Source: a virus. From it: a stretch of 27,440 nt of DNA. The DNA is taken from positions 1 to 27,440 of IMG/VR virus record IMGVR_UViG_3300021376_000287. One strand, given 5' to 3'. The notes beneath the pieces were generated by a model. The model did not search any database. It was not told where the DNA came from and saw nothing but the letters and a program-made list of their open reading frames with translations. Of this stretch, positions 7,422 to 26,488 are shown piece after piece. The position numbers and the translations under genes are program-made. Every line of letters starts with the position of its first letter. The first letter of the stretch is position 1.

Positions 7422-7460
7422 ACTACTGGAACACTTTAGACGATCCTAACTTTAATCCAA
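7422..7460 (-). repeat. Intercistronic repeat R8 (type B)
   Basis: Copy 8, type B variant (AGTGTTCCAGTAGT before ATG at 7421). The edge reads TTGGATTAAAG rather than TTGAATTAAAG. The upstream gene's TGA (7461-7463) is just outside. GATC intact. Confidence 0.95.
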
Positions 7461-7664: not shown

Positions 7665-7692
7665 CGGAGTTTCACGAACAAAGGTACAATAA

Positions 7693-7722
7693 AGGAGCAC
7701 AAGCAAAAAAGCAAGTGCTCCT
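7693..7722 (-). terminator. Hairpin, probable terminator of the 80-aa gene
   Basis: Perfect 8-bp inverted repeat AGGAGCAC/GTGCTCCT with a 14-base loop that contains six T, followed on the minus strand by TTATTGT. It starts about 10 bases after the stop of the gene at 7733-7975. The T-run after the stem is short, so strength is uncertain. Confidence 0.5.
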
Positions 7723-7732
7723 GTGTCAGTTT

Positions 7733-7975
7733 TTAGACTGCCACATGGCGGGCAGTCAGTTGTTCAATAAAGGTCACAATTTGCTTCACATAAGGCGAAA
7801 CAGTTTGAGTGAACTTAACCACATCTTCACGAAGTTTGTTGACTTCATACTGATGGATTTGCCAGCGAATCTTGATGTCTTGGAAGTATTGTTCCCGAGT
7901 AATCAGTACCTGTGGGACGGACACTTCGGGCGCAACAGCAACAACATCAGAGGTTTGCTTGCGAGCGCGAGGCAT
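7733..7975 (-). CDS. Hypothetical protein (80 aa)
   Basis: Starts MPRARKQTSDVVAVAPEVSV with a basic disordered N-terminus, then a helical region ITREQYFQDIKIRWQIHQYE and VSPYVKQIVTFIEQLTARHV. The ATG lies 16 bases after repeat R9, a longer leader than usual for these repeats. A hairpin terminator follows its stop. Single-gene cassette; no family recognised. Confidence 0.65.
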   Translation of the reverse strand: MPRARKQTSDVVAVAPEVSVPQVLITREQYFQDIKIRWQIHQYEVNKLREDVVKFTQTVSPYVKQIVTFIEQLTARHVAV

Positions 7976-7991
7976 AGGTTAGATGCGTCTT

Positions 7992-8030
7992 ACACTACCA
8001 GAACACTTTAGACGATCCTAACTTTAACTC
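7992..8030 (-). repeat. Intercistronic repeat R9 (type B, diverged)
   Basis: Copy 9, diverged type B: AGTGTTCTGGTAGTGTAAG follows the core, with the ATG 16 bases further on. The methyltransferase stop TAA (8024-8026) is inside the element. GATC and flanking TTAGGATCGTCTAA are unchanged although the tail has drifted. Confidence 0.95.
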
Positions 8031-8848
8031 ATAGCATTTAGCAGGGGATTGTTGATACGTTCCTGTGCAATCTTAAAGTATTGCTCATCCATCTCAATAC
8101 CGATGAAGTTTCTGTTACAATTTACAGCAGCGACTCCAGTTGTTCCAGAACCCATACAATTATCCAGGATAGTTTCACCTTCGTTGCTGTATGTACGAAT
8201 CAAATACTCCATCAAAGCGACTGGTTTTTGTGTGGGATGAACAGTATCCTTATCGAGTCCAAACTCTATAATTTCTGATGGATAGTTGGTATATTTTTGC
8301 TCATACACAGTTTCATGTAGTAGTTTATTGCCAACACCCATATGTTCTGGTTGATGCAGAAACTTGCCAAGTCGTTTTGCACTATTCTTTTTCACAACAT
8401 GTTTCTCAATCAAACCTTGTGGGTTGTAAGTCATGTTTTTGTTTGCTTTCTTAGACCCACCGCTAGCACCAAGGGGAGAGAATACCAAAACGTCTTCAGT
8501 TTCCTTCATAGGTCTTGCATTTGCATGAAGAAATCCTGTTGTCCTTTTCTTCTTCCAAATCCACTCATACTTGAACCACTCAAGGTTACTTACTACAAGT
8601 TGACTGGTGAATGGTTGGTCAGCAGTTAATACAACAGCACCCGTTGGTTTTAGCACCCTGCGATAGTGCTCCCACAACTCATCTAGTGGAATGACAGTAT
8701 CCCACTCCAAAACTCTATTGCTTCCTTTATCCTGAACACCTTTACGGTCAGTTGTACCATAGGGAAGATCGCAAAGAATAAGGTCCACAGACTGTTCTGC
8801 GACCTTATTCATCTCAATTAAACAATCGCCCAGATACAACTCAACCAT
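8024..8848 (-). CDS. Beta-class N6/N4 DNA methyltransferase
   Basis: A 274-residue enzyme of the N6_N4_Mtase type (PF01555). Catalytic motif IV DLPYGT is near the N-terminus (Asp27-Pro29-Tyr30). The SAM-binding motif I, DNCMGSGTTGVAA, is near the C-terminus (about 236-248), preceded by HPTQKP. This IV-before-I order defines the beta group. DLPY suggests N6-adenine or N4-cytosine methylation; the target cannot be read from sequence. It overlaps by 8 bases the HNH/endonuclease VII-type gene upstream, and the pair forms one cassette between R10 and R9. It may be a modification partner, a solitary methylase against host restriction, or a regulator. Confidence 0.9.
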   Translation of the reverse strand: MVELYLGDCLIEMNKVAEQSVDLILCDLPYGTTDRKGVQDKGSNRVLEWDTVIPLDELWEHYRRVLKPTGAVVLTADQPFTSQLVVSNLEWFKYEWIWKKKRTTGFLHANARPMKETEDVLVFSPLGASGGSKKANKNMTYNPQGLIEKHVVKKNSAKRLGKFLHQPEHMGVGNKLLHETVYEQKYTNYPSEIIEFGLDKDTVHPTQKPVALMEYLIRTYSNEGETILDNCMGSGTTGVAAVNCNRNFIGIEMDEQYFKIAQERINNPLLNAMS

Positions 8849-9221
8849 GAAGATTTCCCTCCTTTAGATAACGGATAGCACGCTCTAGTGATTCAATCGT
8901 ATCACCCAACATACCAATACTACGGTTACAATTATCACACAACCAACCACGATGTGCTAAAGTTTCGTGGTCATGATCGAACACCAATTTCTTATCAGTT
9001 CTACCACAATTATAGCACGGAGTTCCTAGTTCTGGATACTTCGGTTTCCCTGCTAGTTTGTATGCTTGTGTTTTACCTTTATTTGCTTTCTTGGTACACT
9101 CTTTACACTCTGGTCGGAAATACTTATCCCCACCAGTATTTGTTGACTGATTGCGACCAAAAAATTGCTCATTCAGTGGAAAGGTTTTTGCACACTTTGA
9201 GCAAGTTCTTGATAGTTCCAT
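8841..9221 (-). CDS. Endonuclease VII-like HNH nuclease with zinc ribbons
   Basis: A 126-residue protein with two cysteine-pair regions. An N-terminal CSKC and CKEC (residues about 8-42) form a probable zinc ribbon. A C-terminal CYNC, FDHDHETLAHRGWLC and CDNCNRSIGML have the layout of the recombination endonuclease VII family (PF02945, T4 gp49), with the Asp-His-Asp-His catalytic run. T4 gp49 resolves branched DNA, but many short phage members are HNH-type homing or restriction nucleases. The stop overlaps the methyltransferase ATG by 8 bases, so the two are translationally coupled. Starts 14 bases downstream of R10. Confidence 0.85.
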   Translation of the reverse strand: MELSRTCSKCAKTFPLNEQFFGRNQSTNTGGDKYFRPECKECTKKANKGKTQAYKLAGKPKYPELGTPCYNCGRTDKKLVFDHDHETLAHRGWLCDNCNRSIGMLGDTIESLERAIRYLKEGNLHG

Positions 9222-9235
9222 TCTAAAACACTGAT

Positions 9236-9274
9236 TATACTACTAGGACACTTTAGACGATCATAACTTTAATT
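9236..9274 (-). repeat. Intercistronic repeat R10 (type B)
   Basis: Copy 10, type B with the one base change inside the core (GTTATGATCG for GTTAGGATCG), still preserving GATC. Its tail gives TAGTAGTATAATCAG, the best -10-like TATAAT among all copies. The ATG of the nuclease is at 9221; the upstream gene's TAA (9269-9271) lies inside. Confidence 0.95.
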
Positions 9275-9445
9275 TACAGGAAGTTTGCCTAGTGATTTAC
9301 CTTTTTTGTGGTCATCAATAAACTTCCTAGCTGATGCTTCGGTCCTACACACTTTGAGTTGCTGACCGTTGTGGATTATCATAAGTTGATTGCCAAACGG
9401 AACTGCCGCATATATTCCTTTGCCCACAATAAATCCTTCTTTCAT
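9269..9445 (-). CDS. Hypothetical protein (58 aa)
   Basis: Starts MKEGFIVGKGIYAAVPFGNQ at 9445; the alternative TTG start 12 bases upstream would extend it by four residues. Reads LMIIHNGQQLKVCRTEASAR, then a basic Lys/Gly-rich end KKGKSLGKLPVN. Small beta-rich fold likely. It begins about 33 bases downstream of the 3' hairpin of non-coding element E2, paralleling the 47-aa gene below E1. Confidence 0.6.
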   Translation of the reverse strand: MKEGFIVGKGIYAAVPFGNQLMIIHNGQQLKVCRTEASARKFIDDHKKGKSLGKLPVN

Positions 9446-9566
9446 TACACTTTCCAAAAAATCGTCGTTTTTGTTACGGCAGATGACCTATGACACCTGC
9501 CAGGTAGAATCACGAAAAAATGAGGTTTTCGCCCCAGTCGTAGCCTTGAGTCTACTGTGAGACTCA
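9446..9566 (-). ncRNA. Structured non-coding element E2
   Basis: Second copy of the E1-type element. It has TGAGTCT/AGACTCA (9547-9553, 9560-9566, overlapping the helicase stop), CGAAAA/TTTTCG (9513-9518, 9526-9531) and GGCAG/CTGCC (9478-9482, 9497-9501), with minus-strand loop ending AGGTCAT. Stem bases differ from E1 while the order, spacing and loop motif are kept, which looks like compensatory change. Function unknown; could be a 3' end or a leader element. Confidence 0.55.
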
Positions 9567-10811
9567 CCGCCTCACCACCGACACGGCAGGTTCGCCCTTC
9601 TCAAAGATGGTATCAACAACTGCCTGCACACTGCGAGCGGTAGCAATACCAACCTTGCTGTAGACAGGGATACACACAAGACCGAACGATTTGCTATACT
9701 GACTCAGGTTGCCAGGTTCAATACGTCCATCGCGCATACCTTTAGCGTCATCGTGATGCAAACGGATGCAACGTCCGATTGTCTGGGAGATACCAATAAA
9801 ATCCATATTGCGAAGGAACAGAACTGCTTCCAGACCGCTGACGTTGATACCTTCTGCGAGGATGGAGTGGTGAAGAACAACGAACTTCTTGTCGTTATCC
9901 TTGCCCCATGCACTCAGAGTGTCAAAGAACACCTCACGGTTGACCTTCTGACCATCAATAACTGCGCCCGTCTTGGCAGTAATATACATCCAAGAATAAC
10001 CCCGCTGCTCTAGTTCAAAGCAGAAGTCAGTTTCAGACACTAGCGATACGATTTGCTTGGTTGCCTTAGCGCAGATCAGAACCTTGCCAACCTTGTTGTC
10101 ATCAATAGTTTCCAACAAGTTAGCAGCGTCGCGGTCAAAGTTGGTCTGCTTGCCCTTCACCATCTCCAGTTGCTTAACGATCACTTTAGGGGGGACAATA
10201 TAACCACCCTCAACCAACTCAGGAGCAGGCACTTTGCAGATGACCTGACCATAAACAGCAACATCATTCATCCCAGGTTTGCCAACAGCAAGGGAATGTT
10301 TGGGAGTTGCAGTGAAGAAGTAAGCGCGACGTGCGTTAGCAGAGAAGTGCTCAGTTGCGGGAAAAAAGTGACGCTGAACAGAATTATGTGCCTCATCAAA
10401 GTAGATGGTATCCACATCAACTTCTGCTACTTGAAGACGCTCCAGAGAGTTGTAGGTGGTTACAATCAGGCGATGATTGTCAGCGTTAGCATCAACCCAG
10501 CGGCGGATTTCACGAGGGCGAGTAGAACTATCGTGATGAGTTTCTCCACTATGAACGTGGAAAACCTTGGCGTTAGTGATAAACTCCAGAAACTCACTAG
10601 AGAGTTGCTCAGCAAGCAGGATGCGAGGAGCAACAACAACAATCGTCTGGGGAGTTTCAGACTGCAACTCGCGCAGAGCATCATAGATCATCTTCAACGT
10701 CTTACCGCCGCCAGTAGGAACAATGACTTGACCTTTATCATGCTGTTGCATAGCAGCAACACCACGTTCTTGGTGGGGGCGAAGTTGGATTTGCATGGAA
10801 GTTGTGCTCAT
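9564..10811 (-). CDS. SF2 DNA/RNA helicase (SSL2-like)
   Basis: A 415-residue helicase. Motif Q-like LRPHQERGV; Walker A VPTGGGKT (residues 31-38); motif Ia VVAPRILLAEQL; motif II DEAH (about 139-142); motif III FFTATP (about 167-172); motif VI QTIGRCIR (about 343-350). It resembles the compact COG1061/ResIII-like helicases of phages more than full T4 UvsW. ATP-driven translocation on duplex or branched nucleic acid is expected; substrate unknown. The first residues MSTTSMQ come from the repeat-linked leader (R11). Element E2 begins at its stop codon. Confidence 0.9.
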   Translation of the reverse strand: MSTTSMQIQLRPHQERGVAAMQQHDKGQVIVPTGGGKTLKMIYDALRELQSETPQTIVVVAPRILLAEQLSSEFLEFITNAKVFHVHSGETHHDSSTRPREIRRWVDANADNHRLIVTTYNSLERLQVAEVDVDTIYFDEAHNSVQRHFFPATEHFSANARRAYFFTATPKHSLAVGKPGMNDVAVYGQVICKVPAPELVEGGYIVPPKVIVKQLEMVKGKQTNFDRDAANLLETIDDNKVGKVLICAKATKQIVSLVSETDFCFELEQRGYSWMYITAKTGAVIDGQKVNREVFFDTLSAWGKDNDKKFVVLHHSILAEGINVSGLEAVLFLRNMDFIGISQTIGRCIRLHHDDAKGMRDGRIEPGNLSQYSKSFGLVCIPVYSKVGIATARSVQAVVDTIFEKGEPAVSVVRR

Positions 10812-10848
10812 AATATAGGGACAGTTTAGACGATCCTAACTTTAATTC
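10812..10848 (-). repeat. Intercistronic repeat R11 (type A)
   Basis: Copy 11, type A variant: the tail is CTGTCCCTATATTATG, so it reads TATATT instead of TATAGT before the helicase ATG at 10811. Contains the TAA (10842-10844) of the 65-aa gene. GATC intact. Confidence 0.95.
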
Positions 10849-11039
10849 GCTGTATCTTTGTATCGGTTGAGGTCTTCAATCACGCTCTGCATCGTGGCAC
10901 GACTATACCCATTTGCGTAACTTGGAGATTGCTCACTGTCATCCGAATTGTAATCTACATTATAGCATACATCAACGCCTTTCTGAAGTGTCTTGAGGAT
11001 ACGCTCATAGGCATAATCAGGGATTTGAATGTAATTCAT
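10842..11039 (-). CDS. Hypothetical protein (65 aa)
   Basis: Starts MNYIQIPDYAYERILKTLQK, with the middle reading YNVDYNSDDSEQSPSYANGY, then RATMQSVIEDLNRYKDTAN. Helix-loop-helix layout, mixed charge. Lies between a strong hairpin terminator (11074-11103) and repeat R11, so its promoter should be within the 34 bases upstream, where TTTTTAGATACC is the only candidate I see. Function unknown. Confidence 0.65.
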   Translation of the reverse strand: MNYIQIPDYAYERILKTLQKGVDVCYNVDYNSDDSEQSPSYANGYSRATMQSVIEDLNRYKDTAN

Positions 11040-11073
11040 CGTTCTCAGTGGTTTGGTATCTAAAAACTAAAAT

Positions 11074-11103
11074 AGCACACCTAGAGACGCTTCTAGGTGT
11101 GCT
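11074..11103 (-). terminator. Strong intrinsic terminator-like hairpin
   Basis: Perfect 12-bp inverted repeat (11074-11085 with 11092-11103, minus strand AGCACACCTAGA/TCTAGGTGTGCT, 6-base loop) followed by ATTTTAGTTTTTAG. It begins 13 bases after the stop of the 65-aa coiled-coil gene. The sequence is also symmetric, so it could act in either direction. Confidence 0.7.
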
Positions 11104-11116
11104 TGGTGGAGGTTAA

Positions 11117-11314
11117 TCAACCGCCATAAACTTCTTCAGCAATAGGAGTATCACCAAACATTTCATTAAACAACCAGTTTTCGGGTTTGTTGAGGTTGCT
11201 TTCACACTCTTTCAAGAAAGCAATCTCACGCTTCCAAAACTCTACAGATTTCTTTGCTTTCAGATACTCGTTGCGAGCATCATAGAGTTTGCGTTGGATT
11301 TCAATTCGGTCCAT
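11117..11314 (-). CDS. Small coiled-coil protein (65 aa)
   Basis: Starts MDRIEIQRKLYDARNEYLKA; the first 45 residues form one continuous charged helix (KKSVEFWKREIAFLKECESN), then a tail ending AEEVYGG. Preceded by repeat R12 with a 15-base leader that contains AAGGA, a possible ribosome binding site. Single-gene cassette closed by the hairpin at 11074-11103. Function unknown. Confidence 0.7.
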   Translation of the reverse strand: MDRIEIQRKLYDARNEYLKAKKSVEFWKREIAFLKECESNLNKPENWLFNEMFGDTPIAEEVYGG

Positions 11315-11329
11315 AATGAAGTCGTCCTT

Positions 11330-11370
11330 ATACTACTAGGACACTTTAGACGATCCTAACTTTAATTCAA
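11330..11370 (-). repeat. Intercistronic repeat R12 (type B)
   Basis: Copy 12, type B with tail TAGTAGTATAAGGACG; the ATG of the downstream gene is 15 bases on. The upstream basic protein gene stops (TGA, 11373-11375) three bases before the element. GATC intact. Confidence 0.95.
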
Positions 11371-11372
11371 AG

Positions 11373-11990
11373 TCAGTTTGCCATCCTCTTCTCAACGTGA
11401 GCAAGGATTTTAGTCTTTGCTTTACCCTTTGGTTTCTCACCAGTTGCCTTCTCATACTTCTCAGTTTCTTGCTGTTTCATTATACCTCTGAGCATTCTTT
11501 CACCTTCTCTGGTTTGCTTATTTCTTTCCTTTGCTGTAAGTCCAGATGCTTTTGCTGGTTTATAGTCAGGAGAGACTGCTTTTTTCTTTTTCTTAGAGAG
11601 AAGTTGTGATGCAGTTGGTGTTGGTTTCTCCGCTGTTGCGGCAGGTTTCTTACCTTGTTTTGCTGCAATTCTTGCTTGTGCTGCTTTTCTTCTTTCTTCT
11701 TTTGCTGCTGCTAGTTGTGCTTCTCTAGCAGATCCACGCTCTTGTTCGGGTTGCTGAGTTCTTGTAGATGCTTGGCGTTGTTGACCAATATCTGAGCGTG
11801 GTTTGTATTCTTTAGCGGGAGCAGTTTGTCCACCCCCGATTGCTTTTACTCTACGCCTTTCAGGAGCAGTCTTTTTGCGTTCTGCACCGATACGACCACC
11901 TTCACCAGTCCTACGGACTTGTGCTCCAGACATAAAAGAAGCATCGTATGCTGCTTCAGCAATCAAAACAAACTCCTGAAAGGTTCTCAT
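11373..11990 (-). CDS. Basic virion-interior candidate with T4-type capsid-targeting peptide
   Basis: A 205-residue protein, strongly basic and Ala/Lys/Arg/Gln-rich. It opens MRTFQEFVLIAE followed by Ala13. T4 internal head proteins begin MKTYQEFIAEA, a capsid-targeting sequence removed by the prohead protease after (I/L)-x-Glu. Here I10-A11-E12 before A13 fits that cleavage rule. The remainder (RKKTAPERRRVKAIGGGQ and repeated AAKEERRKAAQARIAAKQ) has low complexity and would bind DNA. A CTAAATA late core lies 25 bases upstream. It is probably packaged in the head and injected; a structural or scaffold role is the alternative. Confidence 0.7.
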   Translation of the reverse strand: MRTFQEFVLIAEAAYDASFMSGAQVRRTGEGGRIGAERKKTAPERRRVKAIGGGQTAPAKEYKPRSDIGQQRQASTRTQQPEQERGSAREAQLAAAKEERRKAAQARIAAKQGKKPAATAEKPTPTASQLLSKKKKKAVSPDYKPAKASGLTAKERNKQTREGERMLRGIMKQQETEKYEKATGEKPKGKAKTKILAHVEKRMAN

Positions 11991-12015
11991 TTTAGTATCT
12001 AAACACTCTTTTTAG

Positions 12016-12022
12016 TATTTAG
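12016..12022 (-). promoter_or_regulatory. Candidate late promoter CTAAATA for basic virion protein
   Basis: Minus-strand CTAAATA overlapping the stop of the 66-aa gene, 25 bases before the ATG at 11990. A second AT-rich box, TTAGATACTAAA, lies directly before the ATG. A late promoter fits an encapsidated product. Confidence 0.5.
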
Positions 12023-12219
12023 AACTCCTCTTCCTTTGCTTTATAGGAACCTTTGAATACACGTCCTTCAGCATAGAATTGTTTCACACGTTCACGACGA
12101 GTAGCAAGCAAAAGATCGTATTCCTCCTGCTGTTGTTTAGTGAATACAAAATCTTGTTTGCGCCATGCTTCATTCAATTCACGAATGTGAGGCAGCACGT
12201 TAGGGATTTGTTCAGTCAT
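12019..12219 (-). CDS. Hypothetical protein (66 aa)
   Basis: Starts MTEQIPNVLPHIRELNEAWR and is helical and highly charged (KQQQEEYDLLLATRRERVKQ), ending KAKEEEF. No membrane or catalytic motif. It follows the single-pass membrane gene by four bases and belongs to the R13 cassette of three genes. Function unknown. Confidence 0.65.
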   Translation of the reverse strand: MTEQIPNVLPHIRELNEAWRKQDFVFTKQQQEEYDLLLATRRERVKQFYAEGRVFKGSYKAKEEEF

Positions 12220-12223
12220 TTGC

Positions 12224-12412
12224 TTAATTTACAGGAGTTTGGGGGTCAGTGGGGGTTTCGGTGGTCAGTTCCGAAGGTGTCACACGAATGTTGTAAGGAG
12301 AATTGAAGAACCTGCGGAAAGCAGTAACAACAATAACAAGCGCCGAAACAACACCAACAAGACCAAGGAAGGTGATAGCATCACCGCCAAATGTATAGGT
12401 GTCAGGGTTCAT
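12224..12412 (-). CDS. Single-pass membrane protein (62 aa)
   Basis: Starts MNPDTYTFGGDAITFLGLVG at 12412, after a TGA-TT-ATG junction. Residues about 12-32 are one hydrophobic helix (ITFLGLVGVVSALVIVVTAF), followed by Arg-Arg and a soluble Thr/Pro-rich tail. By the positive-inside rule the tail would be cytoplasmic. Possible role in host membrane remodelling or lysis control; nothing specific seen. Confidence 0.7.
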   Translation of the reverse strand: MNPDTYTFGGDAITFLGLVGVVSALVIVVTAFRRFFNSPYNIRVTPSELTTETPTDPQTPVN

Positions 12413-12414
12413 AA

Positions 12415-12552
12415 TCAAAAGTCCCAGTTAGAGTTTAAGAAAGCATTAAAAGATTTGTCGTCGCTCTCTTCCTCAAAGAGACCTTCATTTAGTTCTTCAA
12501 CAAAGTCAAAGGAAGAGAGATCTTCAACTTGAATGTCGTCAAAGGATTCCAT
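12415..12552 (-). CDS. Very acidic small protein (45 aa)
   Basis: Starts MESFDDIQVEDLSSFDFVEE and ends FNAFLNSNWDF; about a third Asp/Glu and many Phe. First gene of the R13 cassette, 18 bases below the repeat, with its stop in a TGA-TT-ATG junction. The composition resembles small acidic inhibitor proteins of phages, but no family is recognised. Confidence 0.6.
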   Translation of the reverse strand: MESFDDIQVEDLSSFDFVEELNEGLFEEESDDKSFNAFLNSNWDF

Positions 12553-12570
12553 AACTGATGGAGTGCTTAC

Positions 12571-12608
12571 ATTACTAGGACACTTTAGACGATCCTAACT
12601 TTAATTCA
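12571..12608 (-). repeat. Intercistronic repeat R13 (type B), last copy
   Basis: Copy 13, type B with tail CCTAGTAATGTAAG. It holds the TAA (12606-12608) of the 82-aa gene. I find no further copy in the remaining 14.8 kb, so this marks the border of the repeat-organised region. GATC intact. Confidence 0.95.
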
Positions 12609-12854
12609 GTCAATCTTTTTGACTGATTTTGCCAACTTCTTCAGTCTCTTTGTTACTTCTTTTCCACCACTACGTTGAACAACTAACTTATCAACTTCTT
12701 TCTTTGTTGGTTTGCCTAATGGACCCTCATATCTTTGAAGAGTATAAGTCTGGGTGCCATCAGCGTCCCTCTTGTAAGTTCCAGGAACTGCATGTGGTGG
12801 AGTATCTGGTTTTTTACCCTCACAGATTTCGTAAAACTCTCTGAATGTTAGCAT
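12606..12854 (-). CDS. Second protein with T4-type capsid-targeting peptide (82 aa)
   Basis: Opens MLTFREFYEICE followed by Gly13, with the same spacing as the 205-aa protein at 11373-11990 (cleavage expected after Ile10-Cys11-Glu12). The mature part is basic: TPPHAVPGTYKRDADGTQ, a YTLQRYEGPLGKPTKKEV segment and a Lys-rich tail KRLKKLAKSVKKID. It would suit an internal head protein that enters the cell with the DNA. A late core ATAAATA lies 16 bases before the ATG. That it is cleaved and packaged is an inference. Confidence 0.7.
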   Translation of the reverse strand: MLTFREFYEICEGKKPDTPPHAVPGTYKRDADGTQTYTLQRYEGPLGKPTKKEVDKLVVQRSGGKEVTKRLKKLAKSVKKID

Positions 12855-14405: not shown

Positions 14406-14560
14406 CGTATTTCAGAACTAGGAGGATTTTTGAGATTTTCTATCGCTTGTTGACGATAGTATGATTTATAGAGAGCATCATCACGCTGGATTAGAAAGAC
14501 ATTCCAACCAAGAATGACTGCAAAACCAATCAATCCAGCGACGACGTACTTGCGGTTCAT
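14402..14560 (-). CDS. Small membrane protein (52 aa)
   Basis: Starts MNRKYVVAGLIGFAVILGWN, a basic cap plus one hydrophobic helix (5-24), then a soluble tail QRDDALYKSYYRQQAIENLK and SSEIR. Starts inside the end of the SPFH-like gene (ATGA). Probably an inner-membrane protein with the C-terminus outside the cytoplasm; may act with its coupled neighbours. Confidence 0.7.
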   Translation of the reverse strand: MNRKYVVAGLIGFAVILGWNVFLIQRDDALYKSYYRQQAIENLKNPPSSEIR

Positions 14561-14976
14561 TTTTTAACAGCAGGTGCTTGTTGAATGTCAAAAGTGGGAA
14601 CAGGAGCGCCACCATTACTGGGAACCATATAAACAGTTCGACTGGTGTTCTCTTCACCTTGAGTAATCCACAAATACTGAAGATAAGCAGGATTACCTTT
14701 TAGACTATCGCCAATAATGGAGTTTGCTTTGGCGACACCTTGAGCACGAATTACTTCAGCATCAGCAAGTTGTTGTGCAGAATCTTTCTTTGCTTGTGCT
14801 TCTAATACAGCGGTTTGACGTGTATACTCTGCCTCCAATAGTTGTCCTTTCCCGTTTAAGGATTTGGTATAAACACCATATTGCGGAAGTCCAAAAGCAA
14901 GACCAGCAATCACAATCACCCCAACAAGACCAAGAACAGCAACACCAGGGTCAATAAATCCGTTTTGTTTAGTCAT
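14557..14976 (-). CDS. SPFH/prohibitin-like membrane protein, short form (139 aa)
   Basis: Hydrophobic helix at about 12-32, then GKGQLLEAEYTRQTAVLEAQ and a long helix with AEVIRAQGVAKANSIIGDSL, ending with VYMVPSNGGAPVPTF. This helix plus 'Y.VP.NGG.P' tail matches the C-terminal part of phage and bacterial stomatin/prohibitin (Band 7/HflK) proteins. The full SPFH domain is missing, so it is a truncated or reduced form. Such proteins scaffold membrane proteases such as FtsH; here it may modulate host membrane proteolysis. Coupled to two other membrane genes. Confidence 0.7.
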   Translation of the reverse strand: MTKQNGFIDPGVAVLGLVGVIVIAGLAFGLPQYGVYTKSLNGKGQLLEAEYTRQTAVLEAQAKKDSAQQLADAEVIRAQGVAKANSIIGDSLKGNPAYLQYLWITQGEENTSRTVYMVPSNGGAPVPTFDIQQAPAVKK

Positions 14977-15167: not shown

Positions 15168-15593
15168 TCAGACGTGAAGAGCAGCAGAATGGATTTCAAC
15201 GATTTCAGGAAGTTTAGAATCATCAAACTGATTCATATTATAGCACACCCATTCCCCGTTACGAAAGACATAGTGATACTCTTCTGCTCCATCAGGCAAC
15301 AGATACTCACAAAGGTCAGAATCAAGACGTGGGGGGCAGTCTTCGCCTCTTTCGCTATAATGAAGGGGACCATAATAACCACGTTTAGTTTTACCTTCTG
15401 AAGTGTAGAATCCATCATCAGTCCATAGGCAACTCACATCTCCGCCATCCACAAGTTCCTCAACTTTCTCACGGGTATTATAATGTGTGCGGAGAATACG
15501 ACCTGCCCACTCGGGATAATTATCGTAATGGCTATAAATGCTGAGGATACTTCCATCAGCAAGTTCCAAACCCACTCGTCCTCTTGTAGACAT
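15168..15593 (-). CDS. Conserved cyanophage protein of unknown function (141 aa)
   Basis: Starts MSTRGRVGLELADGSILSIY and continues SHYDNYPEWAGRILRTHYNT, VEELVDGGDVSCLWTDDGFY, YYGPLHYSERGEDCPPRLDS and VFRNGEWVCYNMNQFDDSKL. I recall the motifs YSERGEDCPPRLD and FRNGEWVCY from a family widespread in T4-like and other marine cyanophages, with no assigned role. A TATAAT-type promoter lies about 28 bases upstream, and it leads the membrane-gene transcript. Confidence 0.8.
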   Translation of the reverse strand: MSTRGRVGLELADGSILSIYSHYDNYPEWAGRILRTHYNTREKVEELVDGGDVSCLWTDDGFYTSEGKTKRGYYGPLHYSERGEDCPPRLDSDLCEYLLPDGAEEYHYVFRNGEWVCYNMNQFDDSKLPEIVEIHSAALHV

Positions 15594-15620: not shown

Positions 15621-15648
15621 ATTATAGGGCATCCAGAGCGTCCTACAA
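15621..15648 (-). promoter_or_regulatory. Candidate sigma70-type promoter for 141-aa gene
   Basis: Minus strand TTGTAG (15643-15648), 16-base spacer, TATAAT (15621-15626), start of transcription expected near 15614, 20 bases before the ATG at 15593. The -10 and the GATGCCC before it are repeated exactly at 26144-26156. The -35 is a poor match, so activity is uncertain. Confidence 0.5.
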
Positions 15649-16332
15649 GGTCTCATGTGACACTTCTTCTACTGCCACAAGGTCTCTGTATTTTTTCCAT
15701 TCTTTCAGTTGTAATTTTCTCAATCCAAGTTTATTATATCCCCTTTCTATTCTCCAAGGTTGAAGTGCTTTTACAATTTCAACGCTGCCATCTTGATAAG
15801 TAATTTTCCAAGTTTTTGCTCTTGGATTATTAGCACCACTTACATCTAATCCATTTTTATATCTGTCTTTCATCATTTGACGATTTATTTCTTTTTGATG
15901 TTCTGGTATAGTTCCACCTTTATTCCAACCAATATGCCCTTTATTTGCCTTCCCAATTTTTCTTTTATGCTCTTCACTTTTTTTTCTTCCTTTACCAGCA
16001 GCAGATAACTTTTCACAATGTTTTTTTGAAAGTTTTTTCCCAGTATTCCAAGGAATGACGCCAGATGCCCCATCGCCACCATTTGTAAGATTTCTTAAAA
16101 TTCCAGTTCCCAAATCTTTTCTACCAAAAACAAAAATCATATAGATTTCGTGCTTAAATGCTTCTTCTTCGGTGAGATTCTGCTTGAGTTTAATTATTCT
16201 ATCTTTTGGTGGAACTGGCAAAAAACCTATTCCTTTTCTTTTATGTTGATTATGTGCTCTGTTTCCTTTCCCCTTACCAATATAATAAGGCGTCCCATCT
16301 TCACGCAGGTAAGCGTAAGTGTAGTATTCCAT
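15643..16332 (-). CDS. GIY-YIG homing endonuclease with NUMOD3 repeats
   Basis: A 229-residue SegA-type enzyme. The N-terminus carries the GIY-YIG catalytic module (YAYLREDGTPYYIGKGKG, Arg20s and Glu in KHEIYMIFVFG). The central region holds several NUMOD3-type helical DNA-binding repeats (NTGKKLSKKHCEKLSAAGKG, KSEEHKRKIGKANKG, then WNKG). The C-terminus (ITYQDGSVEIVKALQPWRIE) is a NUMOD1- or HTH-like target-recognition end. A terminator and a TATAAATA late promoter precede it, as for T4 seg genes. Its stop codon is followed in the same frame by a six-codon DALDAL stretch. Confidence 0.9.
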   Translation of the reverse strand: MEYYTYAYLREDGTPYYIGKGKGNRAHNQHKRKGIGFLPVPPKDRIIKLKQNLTEEEAFKHEIYMIFVFGRKDLGTGILRNLTNGGDGASGVIPWNTGKKLSKKHCEKLSAAGKGRKKSEEHKRKIGKANKGHIGWNKGGTIPEHQKEINRQMMKDRYKNGLDVSGANNPRAKTWKITYQDGSVEIVKALQPWRIERGYNKLGLRKLQLKEWKKYRDLVAVEEVSHETL

Positions 16333-17275: not shown

Positions 17276-18889
17276 CTAAATGTTAAAAAATTTATCAAGA
17301 GTTCCGTCACCTTTCCAATCTTCAATATCTTGGTTCAAAATATATCCACAGTTTGGGCAATTAATTACATCATGCTCACATATTATCATAGTTTCTTGCA
17401 CTTGTGGTTTTGAATATGTTTCAAATTGTTCCAACCAAGAAAAACCTTTTGCTGCAGTATTTGCATAGTATTCTCTAAATTCATCAAGAGAATTCTTCCA
17501 TGTTTGTTTTTTATCCCCCTCTGGATACCAAATGTCATAGACATTAGCAGTTTTAATTGTTTCTAAGACTGTTTCAAGATCTATATCAAAATCTTTTGGA
17601 TAATTTTTGGTATAATCTTGAATGTTGTTTTTATATTTTTTTCTAATTATGTTATCTGTACCAACATTTATTCTAACCATTCTTCCGAAAATTTGGATTG
17701 GTATTTGTGTCCTCACTTCTTTCGGTCTACGAACTCTACAAATAACCTCACAAGATAAGTTGTGCAAATTTATTCCACTACGACACCTATTGATAGCAAT
17801 CAAAAATCTAACTTTGTCTGTAGGATCTTGCATACGAGAAAATAATTCCTCAGAACTATTAACTTTCTCACTATTACCACTTAGGTCATGAATACGAATG
17901 CCACCTTGACCATCTGCAGAAGAATCTTCAACCATAGTTGCGATCATTTTATCACTAATATCATATCCAGCATCTAGGAGATATTCTACAATAAGTTCTT
18001 TAACGTCTTCTATTGGACATCCCCAAACTCCTTCTCGATTTCCAGCAATAAAAAGTGCTGAAAGTTTTGGATTGATATTAGAATCATGTTCCTGCAGTGC
18101 TAAAAGATCATCTTCTCTATTAAGAAGAGTTCTAATAGCATTTTGAACTGCTGGGCGGCAAGAATTTTTTCCTTGAGATTTTACAAATTGATACTTTTTA
18201 ACATTATTCAACCATGCCTGATGTGGAAGTATATCTTCAAGAGATGCTAGTTCACTACAAACTTGAAATTGTTCTGTGAAGAAAGAATCACTTTCGTGGT
18301 GAAGTGTTGTAGTGGCAGTAAATCCAATGACTCTTGGATTAACCAACATCCACTCACGAATTCTTTTCATGGTTGTTGCATCATATTCACTATGAAAACC
18401 AAAATTGCGAAGATATGCTTCAGTGCCAGCGTCACCACACCCAGTAAATTGATGTGCCTCTTCTATACAGAGAATTGATTTTGAGGCAAGTTCTAAGAAT
18501 CTTGGAAAATGAGAAGCGTGAGAAAAATAACCATGAGTTACTGAAAGACAGAATACCACATCATCACCAGATAGAGTTGTAACTCCCATAGCATCTTCAG
18601 ATGGATCATTCAAATACCAGAATCTATATTCTTTATCTTCAATATTTTTTACTTTTTCAAAAGTACCATCATGAGCAACTTCATTAGTTGGAGAGAGTCT
18701 GATGATATATTTAAGTTCTGGAAACGCTTTTTTGAGAACTAAAGGCATTTCTGTATCTTGATAGAAAGATTTTCCACCTCCAGTTTGTAGAGTGAAAATG
18801 GAAACCTTACCATTAGTGAATTTACTATCACCAACAGTAGAGTTAAAAGCAGTCGAAAACTGCTCATAAGGAGTGAGTTTCATGTTCAT
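17276..18889 (-). CDS. SF2 helicase (type III restriction/ResIII-like) with C-terminal zinc site
   Basis: A 537-residue helicase. Walker A TLQTGGGKS (33-41); motif II reads EEAH (about 144-147) in place of DEAH; motif III FTATT (about 193); motif VI QIFGRMVR (about 396). The C-terminus has CEHDVINCPNCGY, a probable zinc ribbon. The fold resembles the motor subunits of type III restriction systems and phage helicases, but no nuclease domain is present. Start ATGAACATGAAA gives two possible Met. It leads the dam operon under a perfect consensus promoter. The role may be helping Dam on replicating DNA or acting in an uncharacterised defence-related pair. Confidence 0.85.
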   Translation of the reverse strand: MNMKLTPYEQFSTAFNSTVGDSKFTNGKVSIFTLQTGGGKSFYQDTEMPLVLKKAFPELKYIIRLSPTNEVAHDGTFEKVKNIEDKEYRFWYLNDPSEDAMGVTTLSGDDVVFCLSVTHGYFSHASHFPRFLELASKSILCIEEAHQFTGCGDAGTEAYLRNFGFHSEYDATTMKRIREWMLVNPRVIGFTATTTLHHESDSFFTEQFQVCSELASLEDILPHQAWLNNVKKYQFVKSQGKNSCRPAVQNAIRTLLNREDDLLALQEHDSNINPKLSALFIAGNREGVWGCPIEDVKELIVEYLLDAGYDISDKMIATMVEDSSADGQGGIRIHDLSGNSEKVNSSEELFSRMQDPTDKVRFLIAINRCRSGINLHNLSCEVICRVRRPKEVRTQIPIQIFGRMVRINVGTDNIIRKKYKNNIQDYTKNYPKDFDIDLETVLETIKTANVYDIWYPEGDKKQTWKNSLDEFREYYANTAAKGFSWLEQFETYSKPQVQETMIICEHDVINCPNCGYILNQDIEDWKGDGTLDKFFNI

Positions 18890-18979: not shown

Positions 18980-19008
18980 ATTATAAAACAAAAAAAGAGG
19001 GTTGTCAA
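18980..19008 (-). promoter_or_regulatory. Perfect sigma70 consensus promoter for helicase-dam operon
   Basis: Minus strand TTGACA (19003-19008), 17 bases, TATAAT (18980-18985). Both boxes and spacing are the exact consensus. The -35 lies inside the terminator stem-loop of the preceding gene and the U-tract is the spacer, so one sequence does both. Transcription would start near 18973, about 85 bases before the helicase ATG. Confidence 0.75.
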
Positions 19009-19011
19009 CCC
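18990..19011 (-). terminator. Terminator of glycine-zipper gene
   Basis: Stem GGGTT/AACCC (18999-19003 with 19007-19011) with a three-base loop, then TCTTTTTTTG on the minus strand. It begins directly after the TAG stop at 19012-19014. Also carries the -35 box of the next promoter. Confidence 0.7.
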
Positions 19012-19428
19012 CTATTCACAACCTGCTTGTGCTGCACCAGTTCCAAGAACTGCACCAAGAGGAATTGCCCAACTCCAAGCATCTTTCTTGGATACCGCTG
19101 CAGCAATTCCACCACCAAGTAAACCACCAAGAGTTGTTCTTGCTGGTGAACAGTAACCTCTACGATATGGTGGTTGCGCTACAGGAGCAGCAACAGGAGA
19201 TTGATATACTGTCCCACCATTTGGACGATAATATGTACCAGTTCCACACTGAACATTATAGCGTTGTGTATTTACTCCTCCCTGAACATAATTCCCATAC
19301 TGATCATAATATCCAGGAATATAATTTTCTTGATAGTTTGTGCAGACGGAATAAATGTTAGTCTGTTGAGCAAAAGCAGGAATAGGTGCTGCAATAAGAC
19401 TAGCAAGTAAAACTGCTTTAATGTTCAT
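19012..19428 (-). CDS. Exported glycine-zipper protein (138 aa)
   Basis: Starts MNIKAVLLASLIAAPIPAFA, a clear signal peptide with probable cleavage before QQTNIYS. The mature part is Tyr, Gln and Pro-rich with four cysteines (SVCTNYQENY, VQCGTG, GYCSP, AGCE). The C-terminal LGGLLGGGIAAAVSKKDAWS and PLGAVLGTGAAQ is a Gly-zipper pattern found in outer-membrane and lipoprotein-like bacterial proteins. It probably lodges in the envelope or periplasm. Strong promoter upstream and its own terminator, a single-gene unit. Possibly superinfection exclusion or lysis help; not testable from sequence. Confidence 0.75.
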   Translation of the reverse strand: MNIKAVLLASLIAAPIPAFAQQTNIYSVCTNYQENYIPGYYDQYGNYVQGGVNTQRYNVQCGTGTYYRPNGGTVYQSPVAAPVAQPPYRRGYCSPARTTLGGLLGGGIAAAVSKKDAWSWAIPLGAVLGTGAAQAGCE

Positions 19429-19449: not shown

Positions 19450-19478
19450 ATTATATATGAAAAAAGGGCGCTTGTCCA
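19450..19478 (-). promoter_or_regulatory. Near-consensus sigma70 promoter for exported protein
   Basis: Minus strand TGGACA (19473-19478), 17 bases, TATAAT (19450-19455). Like the helicase promoter, the -35 is inside the hairpin loop of the upstream terminator. Start expected near 19443, about 15 bases before the ATG at 19428. Confidence 0.7.
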
Positions 19479-19484
19479 GCACCC
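19460..19484 (-). terminator. Terminator of the 54-aa gene
   Basis: Stem GGGTGC/GCGCCC (one G-U pair) with loop TGGACAA, followed by a run of six T on the minus strand. Begins 13 bases after the stop at 19498. Confidence 0.75.
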
Positions 19485-19497
19485 ATGTGACAGTTAT

Positions 19498-19662
19498 TCA
19501 GTTGCCTAGTTCTTTCAAACTTCGCACCAAGTATTCAGTAAACTCTTCCATTTTTTCGGGAATAAGTGCCTGAGGTCTTTCAGCGATAACTTTTCTGAGT
19601 GCATTCATCTCATTCCACTCATCATCTGTTAGACTTTGTTTTCCTCTAGATGGAAGTGTCAT
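19498..19662 (-). CDS. Hypothetical protein (54 aa)
   Basis: Starts MTLPSRGKQSLTDDEWNEMN at 19662, with GGGAG eight bases upstream, favouring this ATG over a GTG 12 codons earlier. The helical part EFTEYLVRSLKELGN ends it. A TTAAATA box at about 19699 may be a weak late promoter. It is followed by a good terminator. No family recognised. Confidence 0.65.
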   Translation of the reverse strand: MTLPSRGKQSLTDDEWNEMNALRKVIAERPQALIPEKMEEFTEYLVRSLKELGN

Positions 19663-19754
19663 ACTTTTTCTCCCGTGATTATGTCCATATCCTAACACTA
19701 TTTAAGGGAGAAGGGAGATTCCTTAATGTTGTCTTAAGAGTGTTGTAAAACTTC

Positions 19755-19979: not shown

Positions 19980-20173
19980 TAGTATTCGTTCCTATGTCTC
20001 GGTTTTTTTACTTCTGTTTTATAAAAACAATAGTCAGGTAATTGTGCTTTTTGTTGCTCAAAATAAATGCAAAGTTGGGCAACATCTTTTGGATATTTAG
20101 ATCTTACTATGCTGTCGTTGATTTTGTCAAGATGACAGAAAATATTATACCCGCACACAATAATTTCTACCAT
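19979..20173 (-). CDS. Hypothetical protein (64 aa)
   Basis: Starts MVEIIVCGYNIFCHLDKIND and ends KKPRHRNEY. Short strand followed by helix and a basic tail. It overlaps both neighbours by one base (TAATG-type). No family recognised; gene status rests on the tight packing. Confidence 0.65.
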   Translation of the reverse strand: MVEIIVCGYNIFCHLDKINDSIVRSKYPKDVAQLCIYFEQQKAQLPDYCFYKTEVKKPRHRNEY

Positions 20174-20775
20174 TAGGTTCTATCTACCTTACGAAGAGTG
20201 TAGGTGCCATTATTGTTATCTACCCACTCTACATGGTCACCTTCTTTAAGATTTGCTGCTTCTAGTAAATCATCAGGAAATTCAACAAAGTAGTCTTCTT
20301 CAGATTGTTGAACAGGAAGTTGCCACTTTACAACCCTATCTTTCTTTTTAGGAACAGTGTCAGGTGCCCAAATATCACCATCTTCACTCACATAAAGAGG
20401 AACTGGCGCATCTTCCCAAAACTTAGTCCAGGACTTTTGACATTCTGGTGATGTGTCATCTTTATCACAACTCAAAGGTTCTTTATGATGAATTGCGTAT
20501 TCAAGATCACTATGTCCCCAAGATGGCATAGAGGGTTCATAATACTCCCTTTCCTTCATTACATCTTCATATGTCCAACCACCATTACCGTTTAACAGTG
20601 CAAGGAGTTCATATGCTTGAGATGTTTTTTGTTTGTAAATGTAGTAGTTTTCTTTTACTACACCTATAATAACATCATGAATTTCTTTCGGCGTTGCTTC
20701 ACCAGCAGACATCGCATCGTGCATCCAATTCTCAAGATTTTCTAGAGAATACTTTTTATAATCAAAGTCAGTCAT
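20173..20775 (-). CDS. Conserved cyanophage protein with AbrB-like C-terminus (200 aa)
   Basis: Starts MTDFDYKKYSLENLENWMHD at 20775, the first ATG consistent with the neighbouring gene. The N-terminal part (TPKEIHDVIIGVVKENYYIY) follows a helical pattern I know from marine cyanophage unknowns. The last 45 residues (DYFVEFPDDLLEAANLKEGD and EWVDNNNGTYTLRKV) have the layout of a SpoVT/AbrB swapped-hairpin domain: strand, PDDLL helix, LKEGD turn, W strand. AbrB domains bind DNA or toxins. A central stretch is Trp and Asp rich with two cysteines. Role unknown. Confidence 0.75.
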   Translation of the reverse strand: MTDFDYKKYSLENLENWMHDAMSAGEATPKEIHDVIIGVVKENYYIYKQKTSQAYELLALLNGNGGWTYEDVMKEREYYEPSMPSWGHSDLEYAIHHKEPLSCDKDDTSPECQKSWTKFWEDAPVPLYVSEDGDIWAPDTVPKKKDRVVKWQLPVQQSEEDYFVEFPDDLLEAANLKEGDHVEWVDNNNGTYTLRKVDRT

Positions 20776-20974
20776 TTCTTGGTTTGGGTTTAGAGCAATC
20801 GTGGCAATAGTAAGAGAAACCATCGCGGAAGTATTTTACAACTTGATAGTGATCAACGTCAAGTGGTTTTTCCACTCCACACTTATCACAAATCCTTGTC
20901 TTTTTTGATGGACTTTCTAATTTGTTTGAGTTCTTTGAGTTCCATCTTAATATTTTTGTAAGCAGTGTCAGCAT
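20768..20974 (-). CDS. Zinc-ribbon small protein, start uncertain
   Basis: The frame ends with a zinc-ribbon: ICDKCGVEKPLDVDHYQVVK, then YFRDGFSYYCHDCSKPKPRN. The only ATG (20974) would overlap the 59-aa gene by 89 bases, far more than elsewhere, and the extra N-terminus looks like noise. A non-ATG start near the KKTRICDKC segment (about 20895) is more likely but cannot be fixed. The cysteine pairs and the HNH-like neighbourhood suggest a nucleic-acid-binding or nuclease remnant. Confidence 0.55.
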   Translation of the reverse strand: MLTLLTKILRWNSKNSNKLESPSKKTRICDKCGVEKPLDVDHYQVVKYFRDGFSYYCHDCSKPKPRND

Positions 20975-21065
20975 CTATTTTGCCTCCGAGTTCCATTGCT
21001 ATGATGATATCTACTCTAGTACCAAAGTGTGCCAGTGCCTTTTCAAAATCATCTAGATCGTACAT
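20886..21065 (-). CDS. Conserved cyanophage-type small protein (59 aa)
   Basis: Starts [20 protein letters not shown], then AMELGGKIDADTAYKNIKME, ending RKSIKKDKDL. Fits a cyanophage small-protein pattern (DDFE.AL.HFG.RVDII...E..GKI...AY..IK.E.KELKQ.RK). Start overlaps the ferredoxin stop (TGATG). Function unknown, helical. Confidence 0.75.
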   Translation of the reverse strand: MYDLDDFEKALAHFGTRVDIIIAMELGGKIDADTAYKNIKMELKELKQIRKSIKKDKDL

Positions 21066-21355
21066 CAGAGGTTCTCTTCTTGTTCAGTGAGAATTACACA
21101 ATCGCTGGTAGGATATGCCACACATGTTAGAATCCATCCATCAGCAATTTGATCATCATCAAGGAACGATTGCTCTTCATTATCTACAGTGCCGCTAATC
21201 AATTTGCCAGCACAAGCAGAACAAGCACCCGCTTTACAGGATGAAGGAAGGTCAACACCTGCCTCTTCTGCTGCTTCAAGAATATATTGGTCAGGAGCAC
21301 ACTGAATTACATTCTCAGTGCCATCGGGGGATTGGAGAGTAACGGAATAGGTCAT
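21065..21355 (-). CDS. petF: Plant-type 2Fe-2S ferredoxin
   Basis: A 96-residue ferredoxin with cluster ligands Cys40, Cys45, Cys48 and Cys78 in the canonical C-x4-C-x2-C-x29-C arrangement ([15 protein letters not shown] and LTCVAYP). The [11 protein letters not shown] helix and acidic surface match photosynthetic PetF. It carries electrons in cyanobacterial photosynthesis; phage copies may redirect electrons to bilin or nucleotide metabolism. It overlaps both neighbours by one to four bases, so it is co-expressed with the right-hand operon. Identification is strong. Confidence 0.95.
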
Positions 21356-25879: not shown

Positions 25880-26119
25880 TCAACCAACTCCATATGCTTC
25901 AAGAATACCATGAGCAAGAGCAATTGCCAAATCCTTCTGTGAGATACTCATATCTTCACGAGCACCACCAGAACAAGAAGTAATGAAAATACCAGCATTA
26001 TCTACTGTGAGTTCTACTCGTTCAGTTTCATTCTCATTTTCAGGATTAGTCCAGGTGAAAACATCAATCTTGGAACGGAGCACATCAGTTCCAGGAAGCA
26101 AAGTGTAGAAGTTAGACAT
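25880..26119 (-). CDS. Hypothetical protein (79 aa)
   Basis: Starts MSNFYTLLPGTDVLRSKIDV, reads FTWTNPENENETERVELTVD and ends DLAIALAHGILEAYGVG. A beta-rich N-terminus and a helix at the end. It is preceded by a TATAAT-type box with the GATGCCC context shared with the promoter at 15621, so it may start a transcript. No family recognised. Confidence 0.65.
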   Translation of the reverse strand: MSNFYTLLPGTDVLRSKIDVFTWTNPENENETERVELTVDNAGIFITSCSGGAREDMSISQKDLAIALAHGILEAYGVG

Positions 26120-26143
26120 CAGGTTTCTGTGTGTATGAGTGTA

Positions 26144-26156
26144 TTATAGGGCATCA
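26144..26156 (-). promoter_or_regulatory. Candidate promoter box with GATGCCC-TATAAT context
   Basis: Minus strand GATGCCCTATAAT, a 13-base match to the sequence at 15621-15633. The TATAAT ends about 25 bases before the ATG of the 79-aa gene; there is no good -35 at 16-18 bases. It overlaps the stop of the 114-aa gene (TAA at 26144-26146). Confidence 0.35.
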
Positions 26157-26488
26157 CAGGGGTCTTGTGCGTGTCCCTGTGTCAGTTCATCAGGTGTCAC
26201 AAGACTCCTCAACACCTTACGAAGAAACTGAATAGAACCATAAAACTCTTCACCATCTTGACCACCAATTACAATCCAATCAACCTCTTCAAGGGCAAGT
26301 TGGATTTTCTCATTTGTGGTAAGTTGTTCAAATCCTTTTTCCGTAAGTTCCTTTCTTTCAAACGCAGCAAGATGTTGGAATGCTTCCTTATGTTCTTCCA
26401 TAAGGTTCTTTGCGATGTCTAGAACTTGGTTTTCTTTCTCTCTCCGTGCTGCTTCTTCAAGCATTTCTTCGTGTGTAGGGTCAGACAT
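26144..26488 (-). CDS. Helical hypothetical protein (114 aa)
   Basis: Starts MSDPTHEEMLEEAARREKEN at 26488 with AGGAG five bases upstream, the clearest ribosome site in this block, which overrides an earlier non-ATG start. Helical through residue 60 (VLDIAKNLMEEHKEAFQHLA), then EKIQLALEEVDWIVIGGQDG and a C-terminal DELTQGHAQDPCDAL. The end is followed by the TATAAT box. No family recognised. Confidence 0.7.
   Translation of the reverse strand: MSDPTHEEMLEEAARREKENQVLDIAKNLMEEHKEAFQHLAAFERKELTEKGFEQLTTNEKIQLALEEVDWIVIGGQDGEEFYGSIQFLRKVLRSLVTPDELTQGHAQDPCDAL

Follow-up and report, generated by a model that had tools for sequence, protein, structure and literature searches.

An exported glycine-zipper protein of a T4-like cyanophage and the putative operator-hairpin promoter class to which its gene may belong

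In front of the gene for a small exported glycine-zipper protein of a T4-like cyanophage, a degenerate dyad operator, a terminator-type hairpin and a −10 hexamer follow one another, and this regulatory element is a more surprising part of the locus than the protein itself. We propose, with a confidence that stays somewhat short of even, that operator, hairpin and −10 make up a main early/middle promoter class of T4-like cyanophages, which would be served by host RNA polymerase and a putative dimeric activator, that the built-in terminator would let single genes travel as insulated cassettes, and that the exported protein would be a member of this regulon made alongside replication genes. For the protein, an envelope protein made early or in mid-infection is the likeliest reading of the sequence data; exclusion of other phages is a possible role by analogy, and its precise effect may be either exclusion or envelope stabilisation.

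The stretch of DNA that was analysed, called the window throughout, is a virus record of 27,440 bases from a T4-like cyanophage: the phage-collection DNA matches listed are to cyanophages or marine viruses and run mostly through a ferredoxin gene. The earlier note had placed the gene at 19012–19428, and the open reading frame found there, of 138 aa on the minus strand, agrees exactly. The gene, its parts and its neighbours are as follows.

19012–19428, minus strand: coding sequence of the 138-aa exported glycine-zipper protein (P0001; PHROG 767), an exact open reading frame with ATG at 19428 and stop at 19014–19012
19369–19428, minus strand: signal peptide, residues 1–20, with predicted cleavage between AFA and QQ (direct reading; A-x-A-like site before Q21 in 54/57 sequences)
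19246–19350, minus strand: predicted β-hairpin, residues 27–61, with the pair C29/C61 (AlphaFold strands 27–37 and 51–61, low confidence; conserved cysteines)
19018–19152, minus strand: glycine-zipper helical hairpin, residues 93–137, bracketed by C93/C137 (helices 95–112 and 115–135; PF05433 in 14/15 members)
19498–19698, minus strand: upstream gene, 66 aa, phrog_14124 by profile match, the transcript of which would be ended by the hairpin
17276–18889, minus strand: next gene downstream, 537 aa, with a weak helicase C-terminal match (Helicase_C, E 0.0048, below cut-off)

Elsewhere in the window, a 2Fe-2S ferredoxin, one of the metabolic genes usual in cyanophages, is encoded at 21065–21355 (minus strand; PF00111, E 2.1e-22), and 14557–14976 (minus strand) encodes a membrane-anchored protein that may resemble an S-SRM01 gene labelled ‘membrane protease subunit’. 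PADLOC returned 0 matches for the four proteins submitted.

The gene had been described as set in a promoter-terminator unit of its own under a near-consensus promoter, and both points hold: the promoter (TGGACA-17-TATAAT, 11/12, at 19478–19450) and the hairpins at 19484–19466 and 19012–18998 are all present. The operator at 19486–19508 is absent from that description.

19486–19508, minus strand: degenerate dyad operator that runs with its left part into the end of the upstream gene (operator and −10 together score 25.0 in the matrix)
19466–19484, minus strand: terminator-type hairpin that follows the upstream gene and separates operator from −10, with 7 pairs and T6 at 19465–19460 (hairpin and T-run; stem covariation)
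19473–19478, minus strand: −35-like hexamer TGGACA within the hairpin (sequence scan)
19450–19455, minus strand: −10 hexamer TATAAT, starting 27 nt before the ATG (sequence scan and matrix)
18998–19012, minus strand: downstream terminator-type hairpin GGGGTTGACAACCCT with a T-rich tail (sequence scan)
18980–19008, minus strand: promoter-like TTGACA-17-TATAAT (12/12), fused with the downstream terminator and facing the next gene (sequence scan)

Each of the two terminators is thus fused with a promoter, the −35-like hexamer lying in the hairpin and the T-tract in the spacer. Taken singly, the signals are not enriched between 17000 and 22000, where 16 bare promoter-like sites compare with 16.6 in shuffles and 5 bare terminator-like sites, also counted as not enriched, with 3.1. 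Fused elements, defined as a promoter of at least 10/12 with the −35 overlapping a hairpin and a T-rich tail, were counted against 20 dinucleotide shuffles per genome and number 2 in the window (shuffle mean, 0.05), 3 in S-SM2 (0.15), 4 in P-RSM1 (0.3), 2 in DSL-LC03 (0.15), 6 in 240,000 bases of S-SRM01 (0.65) and 1 in T4 (0.3), an excess of which part could be adjacency, since the shuffles ignore the crowding of both signals between genes. A literature search for overlapping promoters and terminators in phages found no paper.

The fused element is kept upstream of the gene with the same spacing in many relatives and is absent in others; by eye, the hairpin element is lacking in the 110 nt upstream in loci L011, L014, L016, L021, L024, L026 and L030–L032, and the stem is damaged in L025. 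Covariation was scored in 15 sequences, after exclusion of the near-duplicates L004, L008, L015 and L020 and also of L010. Of the 105 cells of the 7-pair stem, 88.6% hold standard pairs, and 4 pairs change on both sides, giving 8 double-change cells versus 1.8 in shuffles (0/500 shuffles reach 8), figures biased towards the stem, since it was itself drawn from the same related sequences; with the partner slid by 1–3 columns as a control, at most 63.8% standard and 4 cells were obtained. One locus, L009 (2939–2979), keeps the hairpin together with a perfect TTGACA-17-TATAAT and has lost the T-run, so that the hairpin may do more than termination.

The operator has the form GTGNCAGTT-N4-AACTGGCAC and lies about 36 nt before the −10, with the terminator hairpin between the two. 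Its spacing recurs: TG[GT]CAC is found 36 and 37 nt before TAT[AGC][ACG]T in 37 and 32 cases in the IMG/VR loci, which are partly redundant, versus a mean of 2.6 per offset, in 5 and 6 cases in S-SRM01 (versus 0.8) and in 4 and 3 in P-RSM1 (versus 0.7); the same offset test gave no 36–37 peak in S-SM2, DSL-LC03 or T4. When only the right half and the −10 were used to pick sites, 87 in number and including homologous sites in related loci, the mirrored left half GTGNCAGTT, which had played no part in the selection, agreed at no fewer than 4 of 5 checked positions in 75 of the 86 sites with full flanks. A matrix was then built from 56 IMG/VR sites, sites with a T6 run being excluded so that the element under study was not used. 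It gives, at scores of at least 15, 32 sites in S-SRM01, 30 in S-PM2, 17 in P-RSM1, 11 in Syn9, 6 in DSL-LC03, 5 in the window, 2 in S-SM2 and 0 in T4, with shuffle means (10 each) of 0.2, 0.3, 0.2, 0.1, 0.1, 0.1 and 0.4, respectively, and of 0.1 in T4; the enrichment in S-SM2 is marginal. S-SRM01 and P-RSM1 were among the data in which the pattern first came to notice, and S-PM2 and Syn9 were added only afterwards. Searches with the exact pattern matched 3 sites in P-SSM2 and 1 in S-B05, and none in P-HM2 or Bellamy. Besides the site before the gene, the window holds these members of the class.

26143–26200, minus strand: second operator-class site, score 36.3, before 25880–26119 (matrix)
15621–15678, minus strand: third operator-class site, score 32.2, before 15168–15593 (matrix)
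7686–7744, minus strand: fourth operator-class site, score 22.4, the −10 of which lies inside the listed TTG-started frame 7461–7706, with the next ATG following the −10 (matrix)

Some sites are counted on both strands because the operator is palindromic, and 86 matrix sites are left after merging. An ATG or GTG opening a frame of at least 45 codons begins 12–110 nt after the start of the −10 in 78 of these 86, versus 31–43% of random positions, and in 51 of the 78 it begins at 27–32 nt. The −10 falls within a stop-free stretch of at least 120 codons in 33/86 merged sites versus 52–91% of random positions, which means that the random control lies mostly inside genes. In the annotated part of S-SRM01 (68,506–88,817), 11 of the 13 plus-strand sites with a score of at least 14 are found 64–76 nt before an annotated CDS start.

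Between operator and −10, a hairpin with a stem of at least 8 occurs in 18/74 named-phage sites versus 2.0 in dinucleotide shuffles, and a first set without T6 elements, which overlaps the named-phage set, likewise gave 18/74 versus 1.0 in mononucleotide shuffles. The excess is uneven (S-SRM01, 11/27; S-PM2, 3/21; P-RSM1, 1/13; Syn9, 0/8). A −35 of at least 4/6 at 16–18 nt is present in 24 of the 74 sites, random positions in S-SRM01 giving 14%. With so few proper −35 hexamers and with hairpins enriched, the class resembles promoters of the activator type: the operator would replace the −35, and a hairpin is often built in. It might instead be argued that the element is an ordinary sigma-70 site, as its −35/−10 match of 11/12 at 17-nt spacing and the mere 2 operator sites of S-SM2 (0.4 in shuffles) would allow, and that hairpin and operator are chance or terminator leftovers; this is improbable, given the strong enrichment of the operator class in S-SRM01, S-PM2, P-RSM1 and Syn9 and given that most operator sites are without a good −35.

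As to what might bind the operator, a possible candidate on sequence is the protein encoded at 20173–20823 of the window (minus strand), the C-terminus of which resembles the DNA-binding part of AbrB/MazE proteins (phrog_661, 1.3e-7; PF04014 below its cut-off, with E 0.0014). A different repeated intergenic element, with the consensus TTAAAGTTAGGATCGTCTAAACTGTACCTATAGTATGAG, is present in 13 copies at 579–12616 (reference copy, 2625–2688; 6 strict matches), is confined to the left half of the window, faces minus-strand genes and is probably another promoter class. It contains an ATG, through which unrelated frames share the start MS-x-TTM, so that their true starts may be the next ATG.

The timing of the gene is suggested by its company. 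Operator-class sites stand directly before it in the window (25.0), S-SRM01 (20.8) and S-SM2 (18.3, one of the only two S-SM2 sites); DSL-LC03 is the exception, having the gene and no operator site just upstream. An overlap of 1–4 bases joins the gene to the end of gp32 in S-CAM8, P-RSM1 and Syn9, and an operator-class site precedes gp32 itself in Syn9 (TG at 1149, gp32 from 1245, score 25.8) and in P-RSM1 (TG at 58041 on the minus strand, gp32 from 57948, score 22.0). In S-B05 it is followed at a short distance by genes annotated as clamp loader subunit and translation repressor, and in S-SM2, S-SRM01, DSL-LC03 and Bellamy it lies amid small, mostly hypothetical genes. Genes of nucleic-acid metabolism and replication are middle genes in cultured cyanomyoviruses (PMC7238727). 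The ‘early-type promoter’ of the earlier note holds only in part, as the promoter belongs to the operator-plus-−10 class, the early timing of which is putative.

The anatomy of the protein is well settled. Signal peptide, four cysteines and C-terminal glycine zipper had been noted before and are all borne out in an alignment of the protein with 56 metagenomic relatives: the hydrophobic N-terminus ends in AFA before QQ, an A-x-A-like site being found in 54 of the 57 sequences, and the cysteines are in register in 55, the third being shifted in L051 and L057. Export towards the host envelope, as foreseen in the earlier note, and the separate transcription unit of the gene are both well supported by the conservation of the sequences. 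In a second alignment (A4) of 15 diverse members, named phages among them, E34, Y36, G50, C61, G101, G105, W120, G125, G129 and C137 are invariant and C29 is nearly so, the exceptions among the cysteines being a third one shifted in L024 and L051 and a first one out of register in L036. Modelled with AlphaFold (mean pLDDT, 60.0; pTM, 0.31), the protein shows a signal helix, two strands and two helices, with residues 62–92 as a low-confidence stretch, and a second model, from the 57-sequence alignment, has the same elements and is worse (mean pLDDT, 54.6). Conservation and the low-confidence model together suggest that C29/C61 would staple the β-hairpin and C93/C137 the ends of the helical hairpin. 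The helices have hydropathy medians of 0.99 and 0.64, and no lipid-attachment cysteine follows the signal peptide, the predicted mature protein beginning with QQ and having no cysteine before residue 29. In L019, L020, L022, L023 and L089 a similar first half is joined to a longer glycine-/tyrosine-rich C-terminus in place of the glycine-zipper half, a module swap.

The protein matches PHROG 767 with an E-value of 8.1e-11 (residues 29–138 to profile positions 47–139 of 143), and 14 of the 15 diverse members match the same profile. Among 50,697 phage records, tblastn gave at least 5 matches with P0001 as the query, at least 261 with the S-SM2 member and at least 266 with the P-RSM1 member, single-query lower bounds that include RefSeq duplicates; by the first word of their names, all are Synechococcus, Cyanophage, Prochlorococcus or Marine. 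For scale, P-RSM1 gp32 matches 2,399 records, 377 of them named Synechococcus and 61 Cyanophage. Profile searches find the family in Syn9 (with one stop within the matched stretch), Bellamy and S-B05 and in 5/5 other records, these five, Bellamy and S-B05 having been chosen for carrying PHROG 767, and are negative in S-PM2, P-SSM2, P-HM2 and T4. From these absences, the gene is dispensable, although frequent in cyanophages. Host homologues were sought in one scan of genome contigs, which did not cover cyanobacterial genomes, and two gut-bacteria loci were dropped as short GYYD-type matches in unrelated proteins.

Comparisons of fold are weak, and the nearest solved fold that they suggest is that of the outer-membrane protein SlyB. 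P0001 itself matches PF05433 (Glycine zipper 2TM) weakly, with 14.1 bits against a cut-off of 24.2 (E 0.045), while 14/15 A4 members match it at E≤1 (best, 4.8e-6) and 3/15 match PRK11280 (best, 5.3e-6). Against PDB sequences, the A4 profile finds a single chain at E≤1, namely SlyB at 0.89, and phmmer with P0001 only one unrelated-looking chain (E 0.39); neither search gave a sequence match to TraT. Foldseek found nothing in the PDB at E≤0.001, SlyB ranking 48th (E 5.8, 38 columns, 1.4 Å, 34% identity). With the model of pLDDT 60 as the query, VIA-align aligned 266 chains, 8 of them with Z≥2, and placed SlyB first (Z 5.8, rmsd 4.8, 54 residues) and TraT second (Z 4.5, rmsd 7.6, 68 residues), followed by mitochondrial complex rows at Z 4.2, 3.8, 3.7 and 3.6; rows less than 1 below TraT count as tied with it, and a Z below 8 may reflect a common arrangement. 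On these modelled comparisons SlyB would stand out a little, and TraT would not.

Putting promoter and protein together, the following course of events can be tentatively proposed, as a whole at clearly less than even confidence. The protein would leave the cytoplasm by Sec and form its disulfides outside it; the helical hairpin, end-stapled by C93–C137, would insert into the host envelope, the weak hydrophobicity of the helices making the outer membrane the likelier site, and would oligomerise much as SlyB or TraT do. Synthesis would take place early to midway through infection, with gp32-type genes, by means of the putative dimeric activator on the operator, the hairpin ending transcripts of the upstream gene so that each gene would be an insulated cassette. 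In the least certain step, the oligomer would alter the surface of the infected cell and hinder the entry of further phages, as TraT hinders conjugation. The promoter class, the operon-like place shared with gp32 in some marine phages and the appearance of TraT among the weak structural matches keep exclusion possible, and the T4 superinfection-exclusion proteins Imm and Sp are also small early envelope proteins. Against the SlyB/TraT-like part of this proposal, the structure is not secure (mean pLDDT, 60.0 and 54.6; no PDB match at E≤0.001), and the tie of TraT with unrelated folds lowers confidence in the proposal. The missing lipid-attachment cysteine, the negative profile searches in S-PM2, P-SSM2, P-HM2 and T4, the relatives lacking the operator or the hairpin element and the near-late −10 region of S-SM2 count against the proposal as well. 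A literature search for glycine zippers and superinfection exclusion found no paper.

Alternatively, the protein may be a SlyB-like envelope stabiliser, its oligomers keeping the host envelope intact during the latent period with no exclusion of phages. SlyB heads the structural matches and is all that the family profile finds among PDB sequences at E≤1, and PF05433 matches the family; the structural basis is just as weak, however, and a lipid anchor is missing, and this explanation is only slightly less probable than the proposal above. That the protein is periplasmic or virion-associated with some other function, perhaps travelling with the particle or working at photosynthetic membranes, is unlikely: the export signal agrees with it, the predicted location being resolved no further than past the cytoplasmic membrane, as do structural genes about 1.4–2.2 kb from the gene in P-RSM1 (on the other strand) and S-CAM8, but wherever its context was read the gene is directly flanked by gp32, by further genes of replication or by small genes that are for the most part hypothetical.

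The earlier note had also offered lysis as a role. Pinholins with such glycine zippers exist, and a protein of this kind, oligomerising through its zipper helices in the inner membrane to trigger lysis, would have the two short helices predicted here; in S-SM2, moreover, the −10 region (TATAAATT) differs from the late motif by a single base. The signal peptide and the conserved paired cysteines argue against this role, as do the position of the gene directly after gp32 in three marine phages (S-CAM8, P-RSM1 and Syn9), the lack of a TATAAATA motif before the gene in the window and the negative profile searches in S-PM2, P-SSM2 and P-HM2, and it is very unlikely. That it is a cAMP phosphodiesterase, as the PHROG 767 description, many records and two of the three matches at E≤0.001 in a viral structure library have it (the third being nameless, and no function being added), is hardly credible for a small exported protein with a glycine-zipper C-terminus, no phosphodiesterase being among the 8 Pfam and 7 NCBIfam families matched by any of the 15 members at E≤1. 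Thus, a widespread phage gene bears a misleading enzyme name, and its product is better treated as an envelope protein; a literature search for this name together with cyanophages found no paper.

By comparison with known systems, P0001 belongs to the same family as PHROG 767, or T4-like gene cluster 330, of cyanophages, with the same four-cysteine, glycine-zipper layout; it is 31–59% identical to other A4 members, and its nearest named relatives are from reservoir and lake phages. Whereas some marine members sit after gp32, the gene in the window has its own promoter. With SlyB and other PF05433 proteins it has the C-terminal glycine-zipper hairpin in common, from which it differs by the extra cysteine-paired β-hairpin and, as SlyB is named a lipoprotein, by the missing lipid-attachment cysteine. 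TraT, the surface-exclusion protein of F-like plasmids, is likewise exported and has a helical membrane part and a β part. TraT forms decamers, is lipidated and has a globular core (PMC11733297, PMC12658005); P0001, lacking the lipid-attachment cysteine, would not match it in lipidation. TraT crosses the outer membrane by helices, and its authors infer physical interference with conjugation (PMC12658005).

As regards the promoter, a class of this kind may help explain how cyanophages time their genes, and an operator at a fixed distance from the −10 (six named cyanophages, S-PM2 and Syn9 among them, have it by the matrix) makes early/middle control testable. No description of it was found in the literature searched, and one may already stand in the Syn9 transcriptome, Syn9 genome or S-PM2 genome papers. 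A 2010 review calls the mechanism of early/middle transcription in cyanomyoviruses unclear, states that these phages have no motA or asi homologues, mentions that in S-PM2 and Syn9 early homologues are preceded by sigma-70-like motifs, and suggests overlapping early and late promoters (PMC2984593); T4-like middle promoters and motA and/or asiA are also given as lacking in PMC5780444. For P-SSM4 and Syn9 the review refers to a putative middle promoter (PMC2984593), which may or may not be the operator class and which lowers confidence in the promoter-class reading: it, too, was proposed for cyanophage middle-gene homologues, and Syn9 has operator-class sites, but according to the review P-SSM2 and S-PM2, both of which have operator sites, yielded no such promoter. 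The two-fold dyad of the operator class is centred about 42 nt before the −10, unlike the MotA box of T4, and its matrix finds 0 sites in T4. In a T4 middle promoter the MotA box stands in for the −35 and the −10 is kept, and this activator-type layout is what T4 middle promoters and the operator class would have in common.
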